Part shown: positions 16,731-38,924 of the stretch, piece after piece
How positions within the stretch are numbered: the first letter of the stretch is position 1
How the letters are laid out: every line of letters begins with the position of its first letter
Source: Cryptosporangium minutisporangium
Lineage (GTDB): Bacteria > Actinomycetota > Actinomycetes > Mycobacteriales > Cryptosporangiaceae
Reading direction: 5' to 3'
DNA length: 64,000 bases
Assembly (NCBI RefSeq): GCF_039536245.1
Contig: NZ_BAAAYN010000026.1
Coordinates: 94,088-158,087 of the forward strand
Translations under genes and position numbers: made by a program
Notes under the pieces: model-generated
Databases searched by the model: none
Told to the model about the DNA's origin: nothing
Seen by the model: the letters and a program-made list of their open reading frames with translations, nothing else

Positions 16731-16931
16731 ATCGAAGGCCGGGTGGCTGACCGTGTCGCCAGGTCCCCATCCGCTTCGCGTGGCCTGGCGCCGGGGAAGG
16801 TGCGCCAGGAGGACCGCCAAGCGGCTGGAGACCTCACGTCACGGGCCTCGTCCGGCCCTTGAATCAGTTCGTTCTGCGATGTCGTGGGGTCTGCTCGGTG
16901 TCGCGGCCGTGAGCCCCCTCATCGCCGCGGG

Positions 16932-30278: not shown

Positions 30279-33200
30279 TCACCGGAAGTCGCGCGACGTC
30301 GACGTCACCCGCAGCGGCAACGGCTCCAGCACCTCCGCGCTCACGCCGATCACACCCTCGACGTTCTGCAGCCGTCCGCGCACCAGCAGCGCCGCCGAGC
30401 CGCGCGCGACCCGCCGGTACCGGGTCCAGACCCCCTGCGTGCAGACGACGTTGAGCATCCCGGTCTCGTCCTCGAGGTTGACGAACGTGACGCCGCCCGC
30501 GGTCGCCGGCCGCTGCCGGTGCGTCACCACCCCACCGACCAGCACCCGGCTCCCGTCCCGGAACGCACCGAGCGACGCGATCGGTACCGCGCCCCGGGCG
30601 TCCAACTGCGAACGGACGAACTGCGTCGGGTAGCTGTCCGGCGAGACCCCGGTCGCCCAGACGTCCGCGATCGCCTCCTCGACCTCCGACATCCCGGGCA
30701 GCATCGGCGCCTCCACCCCGATCACGACCCCGGCGAGCCGGTCGGGCCGCCCCTGCGCCACCGCGCCGGCGGCCCAGAGCGCGGCCCGCCGGGAGAGCCC
30801 GAAACAGTCGAAGGCCCCGGCCGTGGCCAGCGCCTCGACCTGCGCGGTGGTGAGCGCGATCCGCTGCGTCAGGTTCGTCATGTCGGTGTACGGGCCGTGC
30901 TCCGCTCGCTCGGCCACCAGCCGGTCCGCCAGGTCGTCGCCGATCGTCCGGACCGCGGCGAGCCCCAGCCGGACCGCGTGGTCGAGCCGGGGTGGTGTCC
31001 CCGGCGGTGGGAACGCCGAGGGGCCGTCCGGCACGCCCAGCGGCTCCAGCGTGGCCTTGGCCAGGCTCGCGTTGAGATCGGGCCCGCGCACCGTGACGCC
31101 GTGCCGCCGGGCGTCGGCGACCAGCGACTGGGGCGAGTAGAACCCCATCGGCTGGGCGGCGAGCAACGCGGCGCAGAACGCGGCTGGGAAGTACCGCTTG
31201 AACCAGGAGCTGTAGAGCACCAGCGCGGCGAAGCTCATCGCGTGGCTCTCCGGGAAGCCGAAGTTCGCGAACGCGGCGAGCTGGCCGAAGATCTGGTCGG
31301 CGAGCTCGCCGGTGATGCCGTTCGCGGCCATGCCGGCGTAGAAGCGATCCCTCAGCGCGTCCATCCGCTCCGGGGACCGTTTCGAGCCGATCGCCCGGCG
31401 CAGCTGGTCGGCCTCGGCCGCGCTGAACCCGGCGACGTCGACCGCCATCTGCATCAGCTGCTCCTGGAACAGCGGGACGCCGAGCGTCTTGTGCAGCGCG
31501 TTCTCCAGCAGCGGGTGGGCGTACCGGGGTTTCTCCTGCCCGTTGCGCCGCCGGATGTACGGGTGCACCGATCCGCCCTGGATCGGCCCCGGCCGGATCA
31601 GTGCCACCTCGACGACCAGGTCGTAGAACTCCCGCGGCTTCAACCGGGGCAGCGTGGCCATCTGGGCCCGGCTCTCGACCTGGAACACCCCGACCGAGTC
31701 CGCCTCGCAGAGCATCGCGTAGACGGCCTTGTCGTCCAGCGGGATCCGGTGCAGGTCGACGAGCAGCCCGTGGTGGTCGCGCACCAGGTCCCGGCAGTAG
31801 TGCAGCGCGGTGAGCATGCCGAGCCCGAGCAGGTCGAACTTGACCAGCCCGGCGGCCGCGCAGTCGTCCTTGTCCCACTGCAGGACCGTGCGGTTCTCCA
31901 TCCGGGCCCACTCGATCGGGCAGACCTCGGTCACCGGCCGGTCGCAGAGCACCATGCCGCCGGAGTGGATGCCCAGGTGACGGGGGAACTTCAACAGCTG
32001 CTCGGCCATCTCGGCCACCGGCGCGGGCACCTCGGCTTCGCCGATCTTCCCCCAGTGCTCCAGCTGCTTGCTCCACGCGTCCTGCTGGCCGGGTGAGAAA
32101 CCGAACGCCTTGGCGACGTCACGGATCGCCGATTTCGGCCGGTAGCTGATCACGTTCGCGACTTGGGCGGCCCGGCGGCGTCCGTACGTCTCGTAGACGT
32201 GCTGGATGACCTCCTCGCGACGGCCGGACTCGATGTCGAGGTCGATGTCGGGCGGCCCGTCCCGCTCCGGGGCGAGGAACCGCTCGAAGAGCAGCCCGTA
32301 CCCCACCGCGTCGACGTTCGTGATGCCCAGCGCGTAACAGACCGCGGAGTTGGCGGCCGAGCCCCGGCCCTGGCAGAAGATGTCGTTCTGTTTGCACCAG
32401 GTGGTGATCGACTCGACGATCAGGAAGTAGCCGGGGAACCCGAGCCGCTCGATCACGTCCAGCTCGTGGTCGATCTGGGCGTAGGCGTCCGGACGCTCTT
32501 TCCGGGTGCCGTACCGGTCGAGGGCACCGATCTCGGTCAGGTGCCGCAGCCAGCTCATCTCGGTGTGACCGGCCCCGACCTCGCAGTCGGGCAGGTTCGG
32601 GGCGATCAGTTGCAGGTCGAACGCGCACTCGGCGGCTATTTTCGCGGCGTTCGCCACCGCACCCGGGTAGCGGGCGAACAACCGGGCCATCTCCGTACCC
32701 GACCGCAGGTGGGCGGTGGCCGCGGCCGGTAGCCAGCCCTCGATCTCGTCCAAGCTGCGCCGGGCCCGGACCGCGGCGAGTGCGGTGGCCAGCTTGCGCC
32801 GGGCCGGCGCCGCGTAGTGCACGTTGTTGGTCGCGACCAGCTGCAGCCGGTGCTCGGCGGCGAGCGCGGCGAGGACGTCGTTGCGCTCGGAGTCCAGCGG
32901 GTCGCCGTGGTCGGTGAGCTCCACGACGACGTTGTCCCGGCCGAACCGGTCGATCAGGCTCCGCAGCGCCCGGTCGGCGTCGCGCGGCCCGTCGACGACC
33001 GGGAGCGTCCCGTCGGCGCCGGTGGCGTCGAGCGCCCGCCGCACCGTGCCCTTGCGGCAGCCGGTGAGCACCAGCCAGTGCCCGTCGGCGGCCTCGGCCA
33101 GCTCGTCCAGCCGGTAGACCGGCCGCCCCTTCTCCTCGCCGCGCAGGTGCGCCTCGCTGATCGCCGTACAGAGCCGGCGGTAACCGTCCGGGTCGCGGGC

Positions 33201-33611
33201 GAGCACCAGCAGATGGTCGCCCTCCGGATCGGCCATCCCGTTCTGCGGGCCGGACAGCCCCAGGCTCAGCTCCGCGCCGAACACCGTCGCCAGGCCGTGG
33301 GCGGCGGCCGCCTCGGCGAACCGGACCACCCCGTACATCCCGTCGTGGTCGGTGAGCGCGAGCCCGGTCAGCCCCAGCCGGACCGCCTCCTCGACCAGCT
33401 CCTCCGGGTGGCTGGCGCCGTCGAGGAAGCTGAAGTTCGAGTGGCAGTGCAGCTCGGCGTAGGGAACGGTCTCCCGCGGGCGGGCCGCGGGCGCCGGTTC
33501 GTACGCTTCCCGCTTCCGCGACCAGCCGGGGGCGTCGCCGCCGTCCGGGATCTCCCCGGAGAGCGCGCGCTCCAGCTCCTTCCACGGCACAGGTGGATTG
33601 CCCCACCCCAT
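30279..33611 (-). CDS. dnaE2: Error-prone DNA polymerase DnaE2 (ImuC)
   Basis: C-family alpha subunit that performs mutagenic lesion bypass with ImuA' and ImuB. 1110 aa from the ATG at 33611 (GGGAGGGGAGC upstream); a TTG nine codons earlier is also open. The PHP domain begins YAELHCHSNFSFLDGASHP near 50; the palm carries PDIDLDIE with the catalytic aspartates, after RGSAANSAVCYALGIT. It ends in an OB-fold region with a GGVVTHRQRP stretch. Compared with replicative DnaE1 it is shorter and lacks the long C-terminal clamp and tau regions, typical of DnaE2. Last gene of the SOS operon. Confidence 0.95.
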   Translation of the reverse strand: MGWGNPPVPWKELERALSGEIPDGGDAPGWSRKREAYEPAPAARPRETVPYAELHCHSNFSFLDGASHPEELVEEAVRLGLTGLALTDHDGMYGVVRFAEAAAAHGLATVFGAELSLGLSGPQNGMADPEGDHLLVLARDPDGYRRLCTAISEAHLRGEEKGRPVYRLDELAEAADGHWLVLTGCRKGTVRRALDATGADGTLPVVDGPRDADRALRSLIDRFGRDNVVVELTDHGDPLDSERNDVLAALAAEHRLQLVATNNVHYAAPARRKLATALAAVRARRSLDEIEGWLPAAATAHLRSGTEMARLFARYPGAVANAAKIAAECAFDLQLIAPNLPDCEVGAGHTEMSWLRHLTEIGALDRYGTRKERPDAYAQIDHELDVIERLGFPGYFLIVESITTWCKQNDIFCQGRGSAANSAVCYALGITNVDAVGYGLLFERFLAPERDGPPDIDLDIESGRREEVIQHVYETYGRRRAAQVANVISYRPKSAIRDVAKAFGFSPGQQDAWSKQLEHWGKIGEAEVPAPVAEMAEQLLKFPRHLGIHSGGMVLCDRPVTEVCPIEWARMENRTVLQWDKDDCAAAGLVKFDLLGLGMLTALHYCRDLVRDHHGLLVDLHRIPLDDKAVYAMLCEADSVGVFQVESRAQMATLPRLKPREFYDLVVEVALIRPGPIQGGSVHPYIRRRNGQEKPRYAHPLLENALHKTLGVPLFQEQLMQMAVDVAGFSAAEADQLRRAIGSKRSPERMDALRDRFYAGMAANGITGELADQIFGQLAAFANFGFPESHAMSFAALVLYSSWFKRYFPAAFCAALLAAQPMGFYSPQSLVADARRHGVTVRGPDLNASLAKATLEPLGVPDGPSAFPPPGTPPRLDHAVRLGLAAVRTIGDDLADRLVAERAEHGPYTDMTNLTQRIALTTAQVEALATAGAFDCFGLSRRAALWAAGAVAQGRPDRLAGVVIGVEAPMLPGMSEVEEAIADVWATGVSPDSYPTQFVRSQLDARGAVPIASLGAFRDGSRVLVGGVVTHRQRPATAGGVTFVNLEDETGMLNVVCTQGVWTRYRRVARGSAALLVRGRLQNVEGVIGVSAEVLEPLPLRVTSTSRDFR

Positions 33612-33672
33612 GTCCGTGCTCCCCTCCCACCCGAACAACTACTGATGCGGACGCCGGACGAGCCGGCGGATC

Positions 33673-35235
33673 TCAGTCGTAGACACCGACGAGCTGCCAG
33701 CTACCGCCCTCCAGCGCGAGCAACAAGGCCGACGGCTCGGTGCCCTCGGCCACGTCCAGCACGACCTGCAGCCAGGCCCGCCGACGGGCTTGCACCGGGC
33801 TCCACCAGCGCTCGTCGGCGGGCCACGGACCGGCCCACCCGAGGACGTCACGGCCGGGACCGCTGCCGAGCCGCACCTGAGCAGGCAGACCGGTGAGTAG
33901 GTGCCGGCCGGTCACCCCGACCGGCTCGCCGTCGGCCCCGAGGACGCTGACCGGAGGCGGACCGGGGGGCACCGTGGCCGGGGCGGGCGGGGGGAGTCGC
34001 CCCGGCCACGGTGGTTCGAGGGGCAACGCCGGCTCCCTGGCGTCACGCCAGGCGACGTACCGGACCCGGCTCTCCGGGTCGCGACCGCCGCCGAGGACCG
34101 GCGTCACCACCGCGTCCGGACCGAGCAGGCCCTGCACCCGGGTCAGCGCCCGGTGCGCCCGCTCGTCGTCGGCGCCGGTGTCGCCCCAGAGACCCAGCTG
34201 CGCGCCGCCGTGCTCGACGACGTCCTCCGGCGCCAGCCGGACCACGGTGACGCCCGCCGTCGGCCGGTCTTCCCGCGAGCGCCCGGTCAGCCAGCCGTCG
34301 AGCTGCCAGCGGACGCGGTCGGCGATGTCGGCGACGGTGAGCACGCCGTCGTGCCGCCAGGTTCGGCTCAGTTCCTCACCGTTCGCGGTCGCGGCCTCGA
34401 TGATCAGCCGGGTGCAGGCGAGCCCGTGGGCGGCGAGCCGCTCGGCGAACTCCTCGGCGAGCGTCCGGGCGACGAACGCGACCGTGTCGACCCGCTCGGC
34501 CGGCGGATCGATCTCCCGGCGGGCCGACAGGTCCACCGGCGGGAGTCGCGCCACCAGCGGGCGGGGCTCCAGCCCACGGGCCAGCCGGTGCGCGGCCGCG
34601 CCGTCCGGGCCGAACCGGGCCAGGACGTCCCGGGCCGGTAGCGCGGCGAAGTCACCCACGGTGTGGACGCCCAGCCGTCGCATCAGGCTCACCAGGTCCG
34701 GCCGGTCGACCACCGTGAGGTCGAGCGGCGCCAGGAACGCCGGGCTCTCCCCGGGCGGAACGATGCCGCCGTGGCGGGCGGCCAGTGCGGCCGCGAACAC
34801 CCCCTCGGCGACACCAACCAGCACTTCGACGCCGCACGCCGCGGCGACGGCGTCCACCACCCGCTCGGCGACCTCCGGCTCCGATCCGAAGTAGCGGGCG
34901 GGGCCGCGGACCCGGAACGCGCACAGCCCCGGGCGGACGATCTCGACGCCCGGAGCGAGCTCCTCCACCGCCGCGACGATCGGTTCGAACGCCCGCGCGT
35001 CCCGATCGGGGTCGGCGTCGAGCAGCACCAGATCGGGGCAGAGCGCCTGCGCCTCCCGGCGGCGCAGGCCACGGCGGACGTTCTCGGCCCTGGCCACCTC
35101 GGAGCAGGCCACCACGCGGTTCGCGGCGAGCACCGCGACCGGGAGGTGCAGCGGAACGTCGGCGGCGGATGCGGCGGCGACCACCGGCCAGTCCGGCGCC
35201 CAGACGGCCGCGACCCGCGTGGGGGTGGCGCTCAT
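33673..35235 (-). CDS. imuB: ImuB, catalytically dead Y-family polymerase and clamp adaptor
   Basis: 520 aa. It has the Y-family fold but the catalytic carboxylates are absent: where DinB has DMDAFF this has APDWPV (13-18), and where DinB has SLDEAFLD this has RPGLCAFRVRG (101-111). The motif QLGLWG at 346-351 is the beta-clamp-binding signature of ImuB, by which it brings DnaE2 to the sliding clamp. A long Pro-rich linker (about 415-435) leads to a conserved C-terminal domain with DERWWSPVQARRRAWLQVV. Start ATG overlaps the imuA' frame at 35232-35235. Confidence 0.93.
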   Translation of the reverse strand: MSATPTRVAAVWAPDWPVVAAASAADVPLHLPVAVLAANRVVACSEVARAENVRRGLRRREAQALCPDLVLLDADPDRDARAFEPIVAAVEELAPGVEIVRPGLCAFRVRGPARYFGSEPEVAERVVDAVAAACGVEVLVGVAEGVFAAALAARHGGIVPPGESPAFLAPLDLTVVDRPDLVSLMRRLGVHTVGDFAALPARDVLARFGPDGAAAHRLARGLEPRPLVARLPPVDLSARREIDPPAERVDTVAFVARTLAEEFAERLAAHGLACTRLIIEAATANGEELSRTWRHDGVLTVADIADRVRWQLDGWLTGRSREDRPTAGVTVVRLAPEDVVEHGGAQLGLWGDTGADDERAHRALTRVQGLLGPDAVVTPVLGGGRDPESRVRYVAWRDAREPALPLEPPWPGRLPPPAPATVPPGPPPVSVLGADGEPVGVTGRHLLTGLPAQVRLGSGPGRDVLGWAGPWPADERWWSPVQARRRAWLQVVLDVAEGTEPSALLLALEGGSWQLVGVYD

Positions 35236-36044
35236 CCCGCCTCCACGGCGGTTCTGAGGTCCGGCACGACCGGCCGGATCCGAACGGCAGGAGTCCGCCC
35301 CAGCGGCTCCGGCCGCCCGACGGGTTCCGGCCGCCCGACCGGTTCTGGCCGCCCGATCGGCTCCGGACGGGCGGGCACCGCGGCCGGCTGGACGAACGGC
35401 GCGATCCGACCGTCCGCGGTCGGGAGCACCACCACTACTCGCCGGGGCCGTGCCGCGCCGCCACGCCCCTCGGCCACCACCGTGACCCGGCGCTGCCGGA
35501 GGCGCCCGTCGCCCCGTCCGACGCCGTGCCAGACCGCGTCGGTGAGCGAGAGACGCAGGTCGGCACCGGGCCAGGAGCCGATCCCGACCAGCACCGCTCC
35601 GCGCTGCCGGGCGCGTGCCGCCAACCGGCGTACCTCCGCGAGCCCGAGCATCCCCGGGTTCCCCACCGCCACCAGATCGACGCCGTCGAGCAGCGCCCCC
35701 ACCACCCCAGCCGGATCCGCGCCGGGCTCACGCACCAGCGCCAGCCGGTCGACCCTGACGCCGGCCTCGGCCGCAGCGACCACGCCGAGCGTCGGCAGTC
35801 CGACGACCGCACACCAGGATCCGGCGCTCGAGACCGCCGCGAGCAGCGCGACCAGCAGGCTGGTCGAACCGCCGACCGCGAGCGTCGAGCCGCGCGGCAG
35901 CCCACCGGCTCCGAACAGCGGCTCCAGCGGCTCCGGTACCGGCAGCAAGTCGGTGACCTGGTGCTTCTGCGTCAGCGTCGACGCCGCCGTGATCTTCTCG
36001 GCGAGCGCGGCCCGAGCAGCTGCCTTCGCACTCACCGCGACCAC
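35232..36044 (-). CDS. ImuA' mutasome protein with Pro-rich repeat tail
   Basis: RecA-like fold protein that joins ImuB and DnaE2 in mutagenesis. About 270 aa from the GTG at 36044, which has GGAG seven to ten bases upstream; the frame remains open to a GTG at 36215, eight bases from the preceding gene, giving 327 aa, but the extra 57 residues are low-complexity Arg/Ala and may not be translated. FGAGGLPRGSTLAVGGSTSLLVALLAA corresponds to the degenerate P-loop region (core GGSTSLL); it lacks the GKT of RecA. The C-terminus holds four six-residue units of type GRPEPV from 18-bp repeats. Overlaps imuB by four bases. Confidence 0.85.
   Translation of the reverse strand: MVAVSAKAAARAALAEKITAASTLTQKHQVTDLLPVPEPLEPLFGAGGLPRGSTLAVGGSTSLLVALLAAVSSAGSWCAVVGLPTLGVVAAAEAGVRVDRLALVREPGADPAGVVGALLDGVDLVAVGNPGMLGLAEVRRLAARARQRGAVLVGIGSWPGADLRLSLTDAVWHGVGRGDGRLRQRRVTVVAEGRGGAARPRRVVVVLPTADGRIAPFVQPAAVPARPEPIGRPEPVGRPEPVGRPEPLGRTPAVRIRPVVPDLRTAVEAG
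35301..35372 (-). repeat. Four 18-bp in-frame tandem repeats (ImuA' tail)
   Basis: Units start at 35301, 35319, 35337 and 35355. The common core is GGTTCCGGCCGCCC with variation mostly at wobble positions. Encodes a Gly-Arg-Pro-Glu-Pro-Val type repeat near the C-terminus of ImuA'. Confidence 0.85.
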
Positions 36045-36222
36045 CCGCCCATCTCCGCCGGGCACCGCCCGAGCGCGCGCAGCGGGTGCGCCCCGTCTGC
36101 TCCACTCCCCCGTTGCGCATGCATCGCGCCAACGCCCCCTGATCGTCTCCGCCCGTACTGCCGCCCGGAACCGGCGGAACAGCGTTGGTGTTCGTGCGGC
36201 CTTCCCCGACCGCACAGCCCGC

Positions 36223-36732
36223 TCAGCCCGCGCGGGGTGCGCTCTCCGGCAGCTGGGCCGGAAATCCGAGCGTGGTCTCGACCAGCGCGCAGAAGCGCTC
36301 CGCGTCGCGGAGCAGGTCGTCGGCCTCGCGCGTGGTCACCGCACGGGGCAGCCCGGCTTCGGCGGCGGCCCGCTTCACCGCGGCGGTGGCGAAGAACGCG
36401 GCCCACTCCCCCATCTCCGGAGCCACCTGGGTGAGCAGCACCCAGACGCTGGTCGGCCGCGACCGGGGACGGCGGACGCCCGGCGGGAGCGGGCGCGCCC
36501 GGACTGCCAGCACAGCCGCGGCGGCTCGCAGAGCGGCCAGGTGCGCGGTGGCGTAGCGGGGACCGGCCGACTGGGTGACCGCGGCCTCCCCGAGCCCGTG
36601 CCTGGCCAGGGCGAGCAGCTCCCGCGGAGTGCGGTGCGGCAGCGCCGAGGCCGGCACCGAGACCGGCGTCCCCCCGGATGCGTCGCCGACGGCCGTGGAC
36701 GGCCGGACCGAGACGGGGACCGGATAAGTCAT
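36223..36732 (-). CDS. SAV_6107-type HEPN protein in the mutasome operon
   Basis: 169 aa, all-alpha. The region PRYATAHLAALRAAAAVLA near 58-76 with RPTSVWVLLTQVAPEMGEWAAFF (here only its core VWVLLTQVAPEMGEWA) matches the SAV_6107 HEPN family that accompanies imuA'/imuB/dnaE2 in actinobacteria. It contains R59-YATA-H64, which fits the R-x4-6-H motif of catalytically active HEPN ribonucleases; whether it cleaves RNA is unknown. The ATG overlaps the DUF6504 stop (ATGA). Family membership is from recalled features; function is inferred. Confidence 0.75.
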   Translation of the reverse strand: MTYPVPVSVRPSTAVGDASGGTPVSVPASALPHRTPRELLALARHGLGEAAVTQSAGPRYATAHLAALRAAAAVLAVRARPLPPGVRRPRSRPTSVWVLLTQVAPEMGEWAAFFATAAVKRAAAEAGLPRAVTTREADDLLRDAERFCALVETTLGFPAQLPESAPRAG

Positions 36733-37145
36733 TCTTCCTCCTCGAGGATGTCGATCCTGGTGACGGTCCAGCGCCCGACAGTCCAGTCGAAGCGCAGGTC
36801 GAAGACGCCGGCGAGGGCGGGGGCCGGCTGCAATGCCGACGGGCTCGCCAGGACCCGCCAGACCTCCTCGTCAGGTGGACGGGATGCGGCCGGCGGTGGG
36901 GTGGACAGCTCGGTGGGGTCCTCCGGATCGGCGGCACGCGCCAGCCGGCGGGCTTCGAGCTCGTCCACCACGGGCGGGGAAGGTGGTGGAAGGTCGGGAC
37001 GCGTGGAGGAGGGGGCTGACCGGGATGAGTGTCGGATGCGGTGGTGCGTGAGAACCTCACGCACCCGGTGGATCTGACCGTTCCAGCGAAACTCCACCGG
37101 AGCGTCCGCGCCACCACCGCGCCGGACCTCGGTCTCCTCGGTCAC
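36729..37145 (-). CDS. DUF6504-like protein, first gene of the mutasome operon
   Basis: 138 aa. VEFRWNGQIHRVREVLTHH near 17-35 and the C-terminal EEVWRVLASPSALQPA plus FDLRFDWTVGRWTVTRI are two short beta-rich conserved blocks separated by a variable Pro-rich insert (about 45-85). This layout resembles the small DUF6504 family encoded with actinobacterial imu genes; function unknown. GTG start with GGAGGGGA five bases before it. That ribosome site is complementary to a hairpin loop in the leader, so its translation may be regulated. Confidence 0.7.
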   Translation of the reverse strand: MTEETEVRRGGGADAPVEFRWNGQIHRVREVLTHHRIRHSSRSAPSSTRPDLPPPSPPVVDELEARRLARAADPEDPTELSTPPPAASRPPDEEVWRVLASPSALQPAPALAGVFDLRFDWTVGRWTVTRIDILEEEE

Positions 37146-37172
37146 CGTTTCCCCTCCACGCCGTACTGCCGA

Positions 37173-37314
37173 GTGCCCGGATGGGCACCCGGCGCCGCTC
37201 GAGGGGAAGGCAGAGCGGCGCCACCGGCTCGGGCAAGGCGCTTCCCCTCGCCTTACCCGAGCCGGCAGCAGCCTTCACCGCCGGTCAGTAGGGTCGGACC
37301 CACCGGCGGTGAAG
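37173..37314 (-). promoter_or_regulatory. Four-hairpin structured leader of the mutasome operon
   Basis: Read on the minus strand, four hairpins follow one another. H4 pairs 37314-37302 with 37285-37273 (13 bp, perfect). H3 pairs 37265-37249 with 37240-37224 (17 bp, one mismatch). H2 pairs 37222-37213 with 37200-37191 (10 bp, perfect). H1 pairs 37188-37183 with 37178-37173. The H2 loop carries CTTCCCCTC (37209-37201). It is the exact complement of GAGGGGAAG in and beside the H3 loop (37249-37241), and also of GAGGGGAA in the ribosome site of the first gene (37156-37149). The whole gap 37146-37577 holds this leader, the LexA box and the aminotransferase leader, with no gene. Confidence 0.65.
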
Positions 37315-37351
37315 GAATCCGGCGGTGGGTCGCGACACCCGCTACCGGAAA

Positions 37352-37373
37352 GGTTCGAACGAGTGTTCGAACC
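37352..37373. promoter_or_regulatory. LexA (SOS) box
   Basis: GGTTCGAAC, GAGT, GTTCGAACC: nine-base half-sites in perfect dyad symmetry. The core TCGAAC-N4-GTTCGA is the LexA consensus of mycobacteria and relatives. It lies 207 bp before the DUF6504 start and so heads the DUF6504-HEPN-imuA'-imuB-dnaE2 operon. A TACAGT at 37379-37384 could serve as a -10 for the plus strand with a -35 inside the box, so the divergent aminotransferase gene might also be LexA-controlled. Confidence 0.85.
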
Positions 37374-37577
37374 TCTTCTACAGTAACCCTGCCCCGGAAC
37401 CGGCGCAACGCCGACGCGACGCCGTCTGCCCAGCGTGTTCGCTGCCTGACGGATAACGATCCCCGGAAACCCTTTCGCCACGGATTCCTTCGACGGCAGA
37501 GTGGTGGGCAACCGATTCACCGCCCCCTACGCCCCCACCCAAAACCGGAACAGACCATCGCAAGGAGCAAGAACACC

Positions 37578-38924
37578 GTGGACCGTCGTCGTCTCGCCGA
37601 CCTGATCAGCCGCGAACGCGCCCGGTACGCCGAACAGCACCCGCGTTCGGCGTCCGCGTTCTCGAACGCAAAGCATCTGTTCGGCCGCACCCCGATGACC
37701 TGGATGGCCAAGCAGGCCGGCGGGTTCCCGCTCTACCTCGCGACCGCACGCGGCGCCCGGGTCACCGACCTCGACGGGCACACGTACATCGACCTCTGCC
37801 TGGGCGACACCGGTGCGATGGCCGGCCACTCCCCCGCACCGGTCGTCGAGGCCGTCAACCAGCGCCTAGGCGTCCTCGGCGGCGCCACGGCGATGATGCC
37901 CACCGAGGACGCCGCGTGGGTCGGTGCGGAGCTGACCCGCCGGTTCGGCCTGCCGCAGTGGAGCCTGTCACTGACCGCCACCGACGCGAACCGCTGGGCG
38001 ATCCGGCTGGCCCGCGCCGTCACCGGCCGGTCGAAGATCCTGGTCAACAGCTACTGCTACCACGGCAGCGTGGACGAGTCGCTGATCGTGGTGGGGCCGG
38101 ACGGGAAGCCGGAGGTCCGCGAGGGCAACGTCGGCGCCCCGGTCGACACCCGGATGACCAGCCGCGTCGCCGAGTTCAACGACCTCGAGGGGCTCGCCGC
38201 CGAGCTCGCGAACGGCGACGTCGCCGCGGTGCTGATGGAGCCGGCGCTGACGAACATCGGCATCGTGCTGCCCGAGCCCGGCTACCTGGAGGGTGTCCGG
38301 CGGCTGACCCGGGAGCACGGCGCGCTGCTGATCAACGACGAGACGCACACGTTCTCGGCCGGCCCCGGCGGATGCACCCGCGCCTGGGACCTGGAGCCGG
38401 ACGTGCTGACGATCGGCAAGGCGATCGGCGGCGGCGTCCCGGTCGGCGCCTACGGGCTGTCCGACGAGGTGACCGCCCGGATCGAGGCTCGCGACGACCT
38501 GGACCTGATCGACATGGGCGGGGTCGGCGGGACGCTGGCGGGCAATGCACTCTCGGTGGCGGCGACCCGGGCGACTCTCGAGCACGTCCTCACCGACGCG
38601 GCGTTCGCCGGGATGACCGCGCTCGGTACCCGCCTGGCCGAGGGCACGGCGGCGCTGATCGCCCGGCACGGCGTGCCGTGGTCGGTGGCGCAGCTCGGGG
38701 CGCGGGCCGAGTTCCGGTTCGCGGACCCGGCGCCGCGCAACGGGGGCGAGTCGCACGCCGCCGGCGACGCCGAACTCGACGACTACCTGCACGTTTACGC
38801 CGCGAACCGGGGCGTGCTGCTGACGCCGTTCCACAACATGGCGCTGGTCTGCCCGGAGACCACCGAGGCCGACGTCGACGCCCACCTCGAGGTGCTCGAC
38901 GCCGCGGTCGCCGACCTCGTCTGA
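37578..38924 (+). CDS. Class III PLP-dependent aminotransferase
   Basis: 448 aa, aminotransferase class III (the glutamate-1-semialdehyde aminomutase/omega-transaminase branch). The PLP lysine is Lys281 in LTIGKAIGGGVPVGAYG; the Asp that binds the pyridine nitrogen is in LLINDETHTFSAGPGG, and YCYHGSVDE carries the ring-stacking Tyr. The start is a GTG with AAGGAG ten bases upstream. It is not a standard HemL: no haem genes adjoin it and the pocket residues cannot be judged by eye. It stands alone, divergent from the SOS operon; substrate unknown. Confidence 0.88.
   Translation: MDRRRLADLISRERARYAEQHPRSASAFSNAKHLFGRTPMTWMAKQAGGFPLYLATARGARVTDLDGHTYIDLCLGDTGAMAGHSPAPVVEAVNQRLGVLGGATAMMPTEDAAWVGAELTRRFGLPQWSLSLTATDANRWAIRLARAVTGRSKILVNSYCYHGSVDESLIVVGPDGKPEVREGNVGAPVDTRMTSRVAEFNDLEGLAAELANGDVAAVLMEPALTNIGIVLPEPGYLEGVRRLTREHGALLINDETHTFSAGPGGCTRAWDLEPDVLTIGKAIGGGVPVGAYGLSDEVTARIEARDDLDLIDMGGVGGTLAGNALSVAATRATLEHVLTDAAFAGMTALGTRLAEGTAALIARHGVPWSVAQLGARAEFRFADPAPRNGGESHAAGDAELDDYLHVYAANRGVLLTPFHNMALVCPETTEADVDAHLEVLDAAVADLV

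Follow-up and report, generated by a model that had tools for sequence, protein, structure and literature searches.

The window, that is, the whole 64,000-nucleotide stretch of DNA analysed here, carries on its minus strand an imuA'-imuB-dnaE2 mutasome operon, with genes for ImuA', an ImuB-like protein and DnaE2 under a LexA box. Damage-induced mutation in actinomycetes is the work of the ImuA'/ImuB/DnaE2 mutasome, whose control has been described as transcriptional, by LexA and partly by PafBC. Downstream of the LexA box, five hairpins (H0 to H4) precede the GTG start of the first gene, DUF6504, at 37145. The features on this strand are, in the order of transcription:

37380 to 37385, minus strand: -10-like hexamer TACTGT, read from the sequence; TNTACT at this position in relatives
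37357 to 37368, minus strand: LexA (SOS) box GAACACTCGTTC, read from the sequence, an inverted repeat
37318 to 37349, minus strand: H0, upstream hairpin from the fold, loop GUCGCG
37272 to 37315, minus strand: H1, 14 bp, arms 37315-37302 and 37285-37272; loop with CGACCC, kept in relatives
37224 to 37265, minus strand: H2, arms 37265-37249 and 37240-37224, separated by 8 bases; 17 positions, 94% complementary, loop AGGGGAAG (loop 2)
37191 to 37222, minus strand: H3, 10 bp, arms 37222-37213 and 37200-37191; loop UGCCUUCCCCUC (loop 3)
37168 to 37193, minus strand: H4, arms 37193-37183 and 37178-37168; 11 positions with one mismatch, 91% complementary
37149 to 37157, minus strand: Shine-Dalgarno (SD) region GGAGGGGAA, complementary to loop 3
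36729 to 37145, minus strand: DUF6504 gene, first in the operon, GTG start (PF20114, 4.1e-8)
36223 to 36732, minus strand: HEPN SAV_6107 gene (PF18726, 5.5e-36)
35232 to 36215, minus strand: imuA' gene (NF058630, 3.4e-51)
33673 to 35235, minus strand: imuB-like Y-family polymerase gene (PF00817, 2.7e-16)
30279 to 33638, minus strand: dnaE2, error-prone polymerase (NF004225, E=0)

In NCBIfam, the imuB-like gene is matched by DNA polymerase IV models, all below their cut-offs. ARAGORN found no tRNA between 36000 and 38500. A divergent open frame of the plus strand (37029-38924), whose class-III aminotransferase domain starts at residue 227, overlaps the leader with its first part, as a mechanical open reading frame only.

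Of 69 DUF6504 upstream regions, 65 contain an exact GAACN4GTTC box, and the four without it all belong to f10 (f- and g-labels are the coded family and genus labels of the genome set). Just upstream of the box, 56 of the 65 regions compared have TTGAC, 15-22 bases and then TNTACT; at this promoter position the window reads TTGCGC and TACTGT in their place. Judging from the position of the promoter, transcription should start near 37373, and the hairpins would thus be contained in the mRNA. According to the earlier note, a start below 37190 would speak against a structured leader. Such a start is unlikely, because the promoter adjoins the LexA box on its upstream side in most relatives and the window has TACTGT there. 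A scan for terminators and sigma-70 promoters returned no match. The motif TGTCRGTG-N8-TANNNT, which we take to resemble a PafBC-type promoter, was found in five of the 65 upstream regions in its strict form and in eight in a relaxed form, and is absent from the window. In the f10 loci L040, L042, L045, L046 and L065, TGTCGGTG-N8-TACTGT stands directly before the LexA box, which suggests dual damage control in those loci.

The 231-base leader folds with an energy of -154.8, compared with -116.6 (sd 5.2) for shuffled sequences (z -7.4), and none of 200 shuffles was as low. Hence, the hairpins are real and not a matter of chance. The earlier note had described four hairpins with stems of 13, 17, 10 and 6 bp. 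All four are present, but H1 has 14 bp and H4 extends over 11 positions with a mismatch; H0 (37349-37318) is an extra hairpin beyond these. The same note had proposed that the loop of H3 is complementary both to the region of the H2 loop and to the ribosome site of the DUF6504 gene, and both matches exist. One is an exact 10-base inverse pair of CGAGGGGAAG (37250-37241) and CTTCCCCTCG (37209-37200), which reaches slightly into both stems; the other is an 8-base match of the H3 loop to GAGGGGAA at the ribosome site (37156-37149). In the minimum-energy fold, H3 opens and its loop pairs with the ribosome site.

The leader is kept in all four genomes examined of the window's genus and in four of five genomes of its family, the fifth belonging to another genus. 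Within the genus alignment, the loops of H2 and H3 are constant, and H4 shows compensatory changes (GCCC/GGGC to GTCC/GGAC, and a flip of T-A to A-T). Covariation in relatives, which had been put forward as a test of the structure, turned out to be strong. In A4, a plain MAFFT alignment of 20 f10 and f13 leaders that was not fitted to the structure and from which the structure itself was derived, 94.0% of the stem cells pair and 25 of 33 pairs have changed on both sides. The covariation score is 0.442, compared with 0.191 after shuffling, and was reached by none of 500 shuffles. As a control, sliding the structure along the alignment leaves 35-45% of cells paired. When the window's genus is added, RNAalifold predicts 27 pairs, 22 of them with two-sided changes. 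Cells with G-U outnumber those with A-C by 48 to 10 in A4 and by 65 to 15 in A6, cells being mutually dependent and the p values of this comparison only indicative; this excess indicates that the leader acts as an RNA of the operon strand. Covariance model R1, built with the window's genus left out, detects the leaders of this genus, with 68.5 bits for that of the window and 61-75 bits for the remaining three. By its compensatory stem changes in homologues, the leader fits the structured cis-regulatory RNAs.

DUF6504 (PF20114) is encoded by 68 of 298 genomes of the order, at 69 places, one genome having two. Upstream of it, GGGGAAG followed by TTCCCC within 75 bases occurs at all four f1 places, all 19 f10 places and the single f13 place, and at none of the 44 f16 places or the one f9 place. 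R1 matches 65 places in 64 of the 298 genomes, counts that are lower bounds, as are all those of the wide model searches, run with Infernal's stricter filters. Gene context covers 51 of the 65 places, the remaining 14 being f15, and the G142 place stops at a contig edge, with no gene in view. At the f13, f1 and other f10 places, the match lies directly before DUF6504. By tblastn, the leader is followed by DUF6504, HEPN and imuA' in the f5 locus, by HEPN, imuA' and imuB in f15 (L130), and by HEPN in the f14 loci L153 and L154; for the other 20 f15 and two f14 loci, the assignment was made by eye on the basis of the shared coding start, and no tblastn match was obtained for L151. In f14 leaders, H2 and H3 come immediately after the LexA box.

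A second model, R2, comprises H2 and H3 and was built from 36 sequences. It matches at least 18 of 394 genomes of the class, 16 times before HEPN genes, once before nrdJ and once (L169) before neither. A HEPN gene lies downstream of the match in the window's own genome and in 15 others, 11 of which also have imuA' or dnaE2 within the locus. In a phylum-wide draw of 178 genomes, which includes genomes of this class, R2 matches the own genome only, where the element is single-copy. Altogether, the first gene behind the leader is DUF6504 or HEPN SAV_6107 of mutasome operons, and a LexA box usually precedes it; this constant position before one gene class is as expected of a structured cis-regulatory RNA.

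The match at L169 (f31; about 1500-1585, E 0.005) has a GGGGAAG loop, and tblastn finds no gene of imu type there. We take it as chance or as a further use of the hairpin, and prefer chance. In the same locus, a LexA-like GAACACCTGTTC is found at 1388-1399, 112 bases before the match. Among named genomes, a protein-based scan yielded 117 stretches with the pattern, and no relative was confirmed among them. A loose DNA pattern gave at least 119 stretches, which are mostly chance among the 80 listed; seven of these 80 match R2 (E up to 0.05), in assemblies named as Frankiales (four), Mycobacteriales, Frankineae and Actinomycetota. Stretches of 22-32 bases matching the loop and 3' arm of H2 (window 37250-37215) occur in many genomes of the order, and are probably chance or coding.

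The make-up of the leader is modular. Of 388 class genomes, 246 contain PF18726. Among 69 upstream regions (L173-L241), 22 were dropped and 47 used, namely those in which a LexA box lies within 1000 bases; these 47 and 14 leaders chosen as known matches make up a set of 61. In this set, in which leader ends were fixed by rule and some are cut short, the hairpin with the H1 loop (CGACC) occurs in 30 leaders (4.5 expected from shuffles), that with the H2 loop in 23 (0.5 expected), that with the H0 loop (UCGCG) in 20 (8.7 expected) and that with the H3 loop in 16 (0.9 expected). The 47-leader subset contributes 14 cases of H0, 20 of H1, 11 of H2 and 4 of H3. Several lineages have very short leaders with none of these hairpins, and many imu-type operons lack the unit. 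The unit is thus widespread but not obligatory. Seven f31 leaders (L207, L215 and L225-L229) have H2 and no consistent H3; hence, a two-loop switch is not the whole story. In several of these H2-only f31 leaders, TTGTCGGTG-like DNA follows H2 and could be a second promoter. Leaders without H2 and H3 may carry an H1-type hairpin with a UCGACCC loop, as in L179, L197, L204, L219, L234, L237, L239 and others. Searching by eye, we found no partner for the H1 loop CGACCC.

The complementarity of loop 2 (GGGGAAG) and loop 3 (CUUCCCC or CUUCCUC) is maintained. In 36 sequences chosen by their GGGGAAG, 99.6% of the loop 2:loop 3 cells pair; eight C-to-U cells keep a G-U pair and one is unpaired. Both loops are nearly invariant, and the kissing pair shows no two-sided covariation. 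The complementarities among loop 2, loop 3 and the SD recur in 15 families, within leaders selected by GGGGAAG, which extends the layout noticed in the window to relatives. In f15, the form CUUCCUC pairs with H2 through G-U and fits that family's SD, GGAGGAG.

Duplex energies were computed for 65 leaders, drawn from 15 families, after a 66th had been left out because of a contig end. The family mean for the loop 3:SD duplex is -12.4 kcal/mol, compared with -10.3 when the SDs of other families are used, and the mean is -11.6 when families are permuted (p=0.005). Within f10, the values are -13.0 and -12.1 (p=0.003), a difference confounded by relatedness, and f15 shows no variation. The native pairing is worse than the swapped one in f13 and f54 and about equal in f28, f37 and f14; for the family of the window, 13% of the 10-mers in the leaders match the SD as well as loop 3 does. 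The competing loop 3:loop 2 duplex has a computed energy of -12.8 kcal/mol. Given the nearly equal strength of the two duplexes, the RNA would be able to act as a second, translational gate. In folds that begin at H2 and extend 30 bases beyond the start, an average of 5.1 of the 7 loop 3 bases are paired with the SD, and the in silico controls still give 4.5 with a scrambled loop and 3.7 with a swapped SD. As the scrambled loop pairs almost as well, pyrimidine content accounts for much of this result. SD pairing falls from 0.79 to 0.54 when loops 2 and 3 are blocked. In f16, which lacks H2, CUUCCC is kept in 40 of 44 leaders (loci among L058-L104). These reduced leaders have one CUUCCC hairpin, and their SD is often GUGGGGAG, which is complementary to this loop, unusual, and similar to the missing loop 2. 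More than two loop:SD pairs are expected in 17 of the 40, genus g27 (10 leaders) fits poorly, and swapping loops and SDs within f16 revealed no co-adjustment (p=0.37). Altogether, these models weakly support a masking of the SD by loop 3.

The earlier note knew of no described RNA element for imuA'/imuB/dnaE2 operons, and our searches agree. At the gathering scores of Rfam 15, the window and seven loci gave no leader match; the only hit is an mraW RNA (RF01746) elsewhere in the window (16741-16850, minus strand, 61.5 bits). With E up to 5, the interval 36500-38000 of the window gave eight matches, the best at 22.5 bits and each far below its cut-off, and further loci with E up to 0.5 gave three, all sub-threshold. 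In searches of open-licence PMC papers, none of the titles listed describes this leader RNA.

We hold it very likely that a conserved, uncatalogued RNA-level leader lies before mutasome operons. In the comparison, its stems are kept through compensatory change and its loops in sequence, and the unit stands before the first gene, usually behind a LexA box. A conserved cis RNA is well supported, and an anti-SD switch is plausible. Our main reading, with a probability of about 0.5, is a cis-acting structured leader of the LexA-controlled mutasome mRNA in which H3 serves as an anti-SD gate. H3 would be an anti-Shine-Dalgarno hairpin; a kissing contact of its CUUCCCC loop with the GGGGAAG loop of H2, its neighbour, would leave the ribosome site free. 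With H2 occupied or melted, loop 3 would instead pair with that site, causing poor translation of the first gene. H0, H1 and the bases around loop 2 would form the sensing part for some factor. The odds for such a gate with a loop-loop alternative are about even, and within this mechanism we are least sure of the direction of control. A translational gate on a mutagenic operon would work after LexA has left. If many families keep such a leader RNA, mutagenesis would be subject to a second, post-transcriptional checkpoint, and the conserved loops make this checkpoint directly testable through paired mutations.

Parts of this layout are familiar from other RNAs. Translational riboswitches gate translation through an anti-Shine-Dalgarno helix in the mRNA leader. 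As here, their 5' leader is structured, one of its loops can pair with the ribosome site, and the leader itself contains a competing partner. In contrast, the present leader has two simple hairpins with a possible loop-loop pair before an SOS mutasome operon, and no ligand or aptamer is known. The actinobacterial 6C RNA of Rfam is a trans-acting small RNA of its own, with a C-rich hairpin loop. It resembles our leader in that this kind of loop can pair with G-rich ribosome sites; here, however, the loop lies within the mRNA that it may control, and Rfam gave no match at threshold. ANTAR-target RNAs of actinobacteria have tandem hairpins in leaders, some of them near the ribosome site, with hexanucleotide loops carrying A1 and G4 (PMC8164766). 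The tandem hairpins are a shared trait, whereas the loops of H1 to H3 have at least 8 bases and read CGACCC, GGGGAAG and CUUCCCC. Compared by eye, loop sizes and letters do not place the leader among the ANTAR-target RNAs.

The constancy of the loops can also be read differently. H2 (loop GUGGGGAAGC), together with H0 and H1, may be mainly a binding site for a trans-acting protein or RNA, with H3 as a lineage-specific add-on that couples binding to translation; we hold this to be possible but doubtful. It would explain why the loop sequences of H1 and H2 stay constant while their stems change, and it fits both the f31 leaders with H2 and without H3 and the presence of H1 in operons without H2 and H3. 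Moreover, the same loop as in H2 of the mutasome leader, GUGGGGAAGC, occurs on a covarying hairpin between nrdR and nrdJ in g122, gene identity being taken from L243 only. A 241-base probe matches 21 of 26 g122 genomes, two of them solely at the nrdJ coding end. The loop is present in all 19 loci read (L243, at 1565-1606, and L244-L261), and the 17 rows that differ from one another have 97.3% of their cells paired, with two-sided changes in 9 of the 13 pairs. These hairpins have no consistent CUUCCCC partner. However, the g122 hairpin may lie upstream of an nrdJ promoter, as a TGTCGGTG-type motif read by eye suggests, and hence need not be leader RNA there. The loop 2/loop 3 complementarity in 15 families also exceeds what an add-on would need, although these leaders were selected by GGGGAAG.

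The loops would be of little importance if the leader were a transcription attenuator or protected the mRNA. Long GC-rich stems just before the genes and the strong fold would suit these roles, but a simple T-run scan of 37000-37600 revealed no terminator-like site, and the loop letters are among the invariant positions, which neither role needs; we consider this unlikely. HEPN domains often act on RNA, and the HEPN gene is first or second after the leader in the loci checked, so that the SAV_6107 protein might bind or cut the leader of its own operon in an autoregulatory manner. This is very improbable, since many HEPN operons lack the leader and a survey of the superfamily gives 'No' for the conserved motif in SAV_6107 (PMC3710099). 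Finally, the inverted repeats adjoin the LexA box between divergent genes, as DNA operator sites might, but the stem sequence varies while pairing stays, and the G-U excess in A4 is explained by one strand only. An operator made of DNA rather than RNA is therefore scarcely credible.

Returning to the leader with H3 as its gate, the recurrence of GUGGGGAAGC allows a further, tentative idea that we consider rather improbable, namely that the hairpin with this loop serves two DNA-damage functions as a common sensor module: the mutasome, which is error-prone, and nrdJ, the B12-dependent ribonucleotide reductase. If true, one common factor would adjust both mutagenic repair and the supply of nucleotides at the post-transcriptional level, and H3 would convert the signal into ribosome access. 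In g122 itself, a TGTCGGTG-type element was seen by eye after several of the hairpins.
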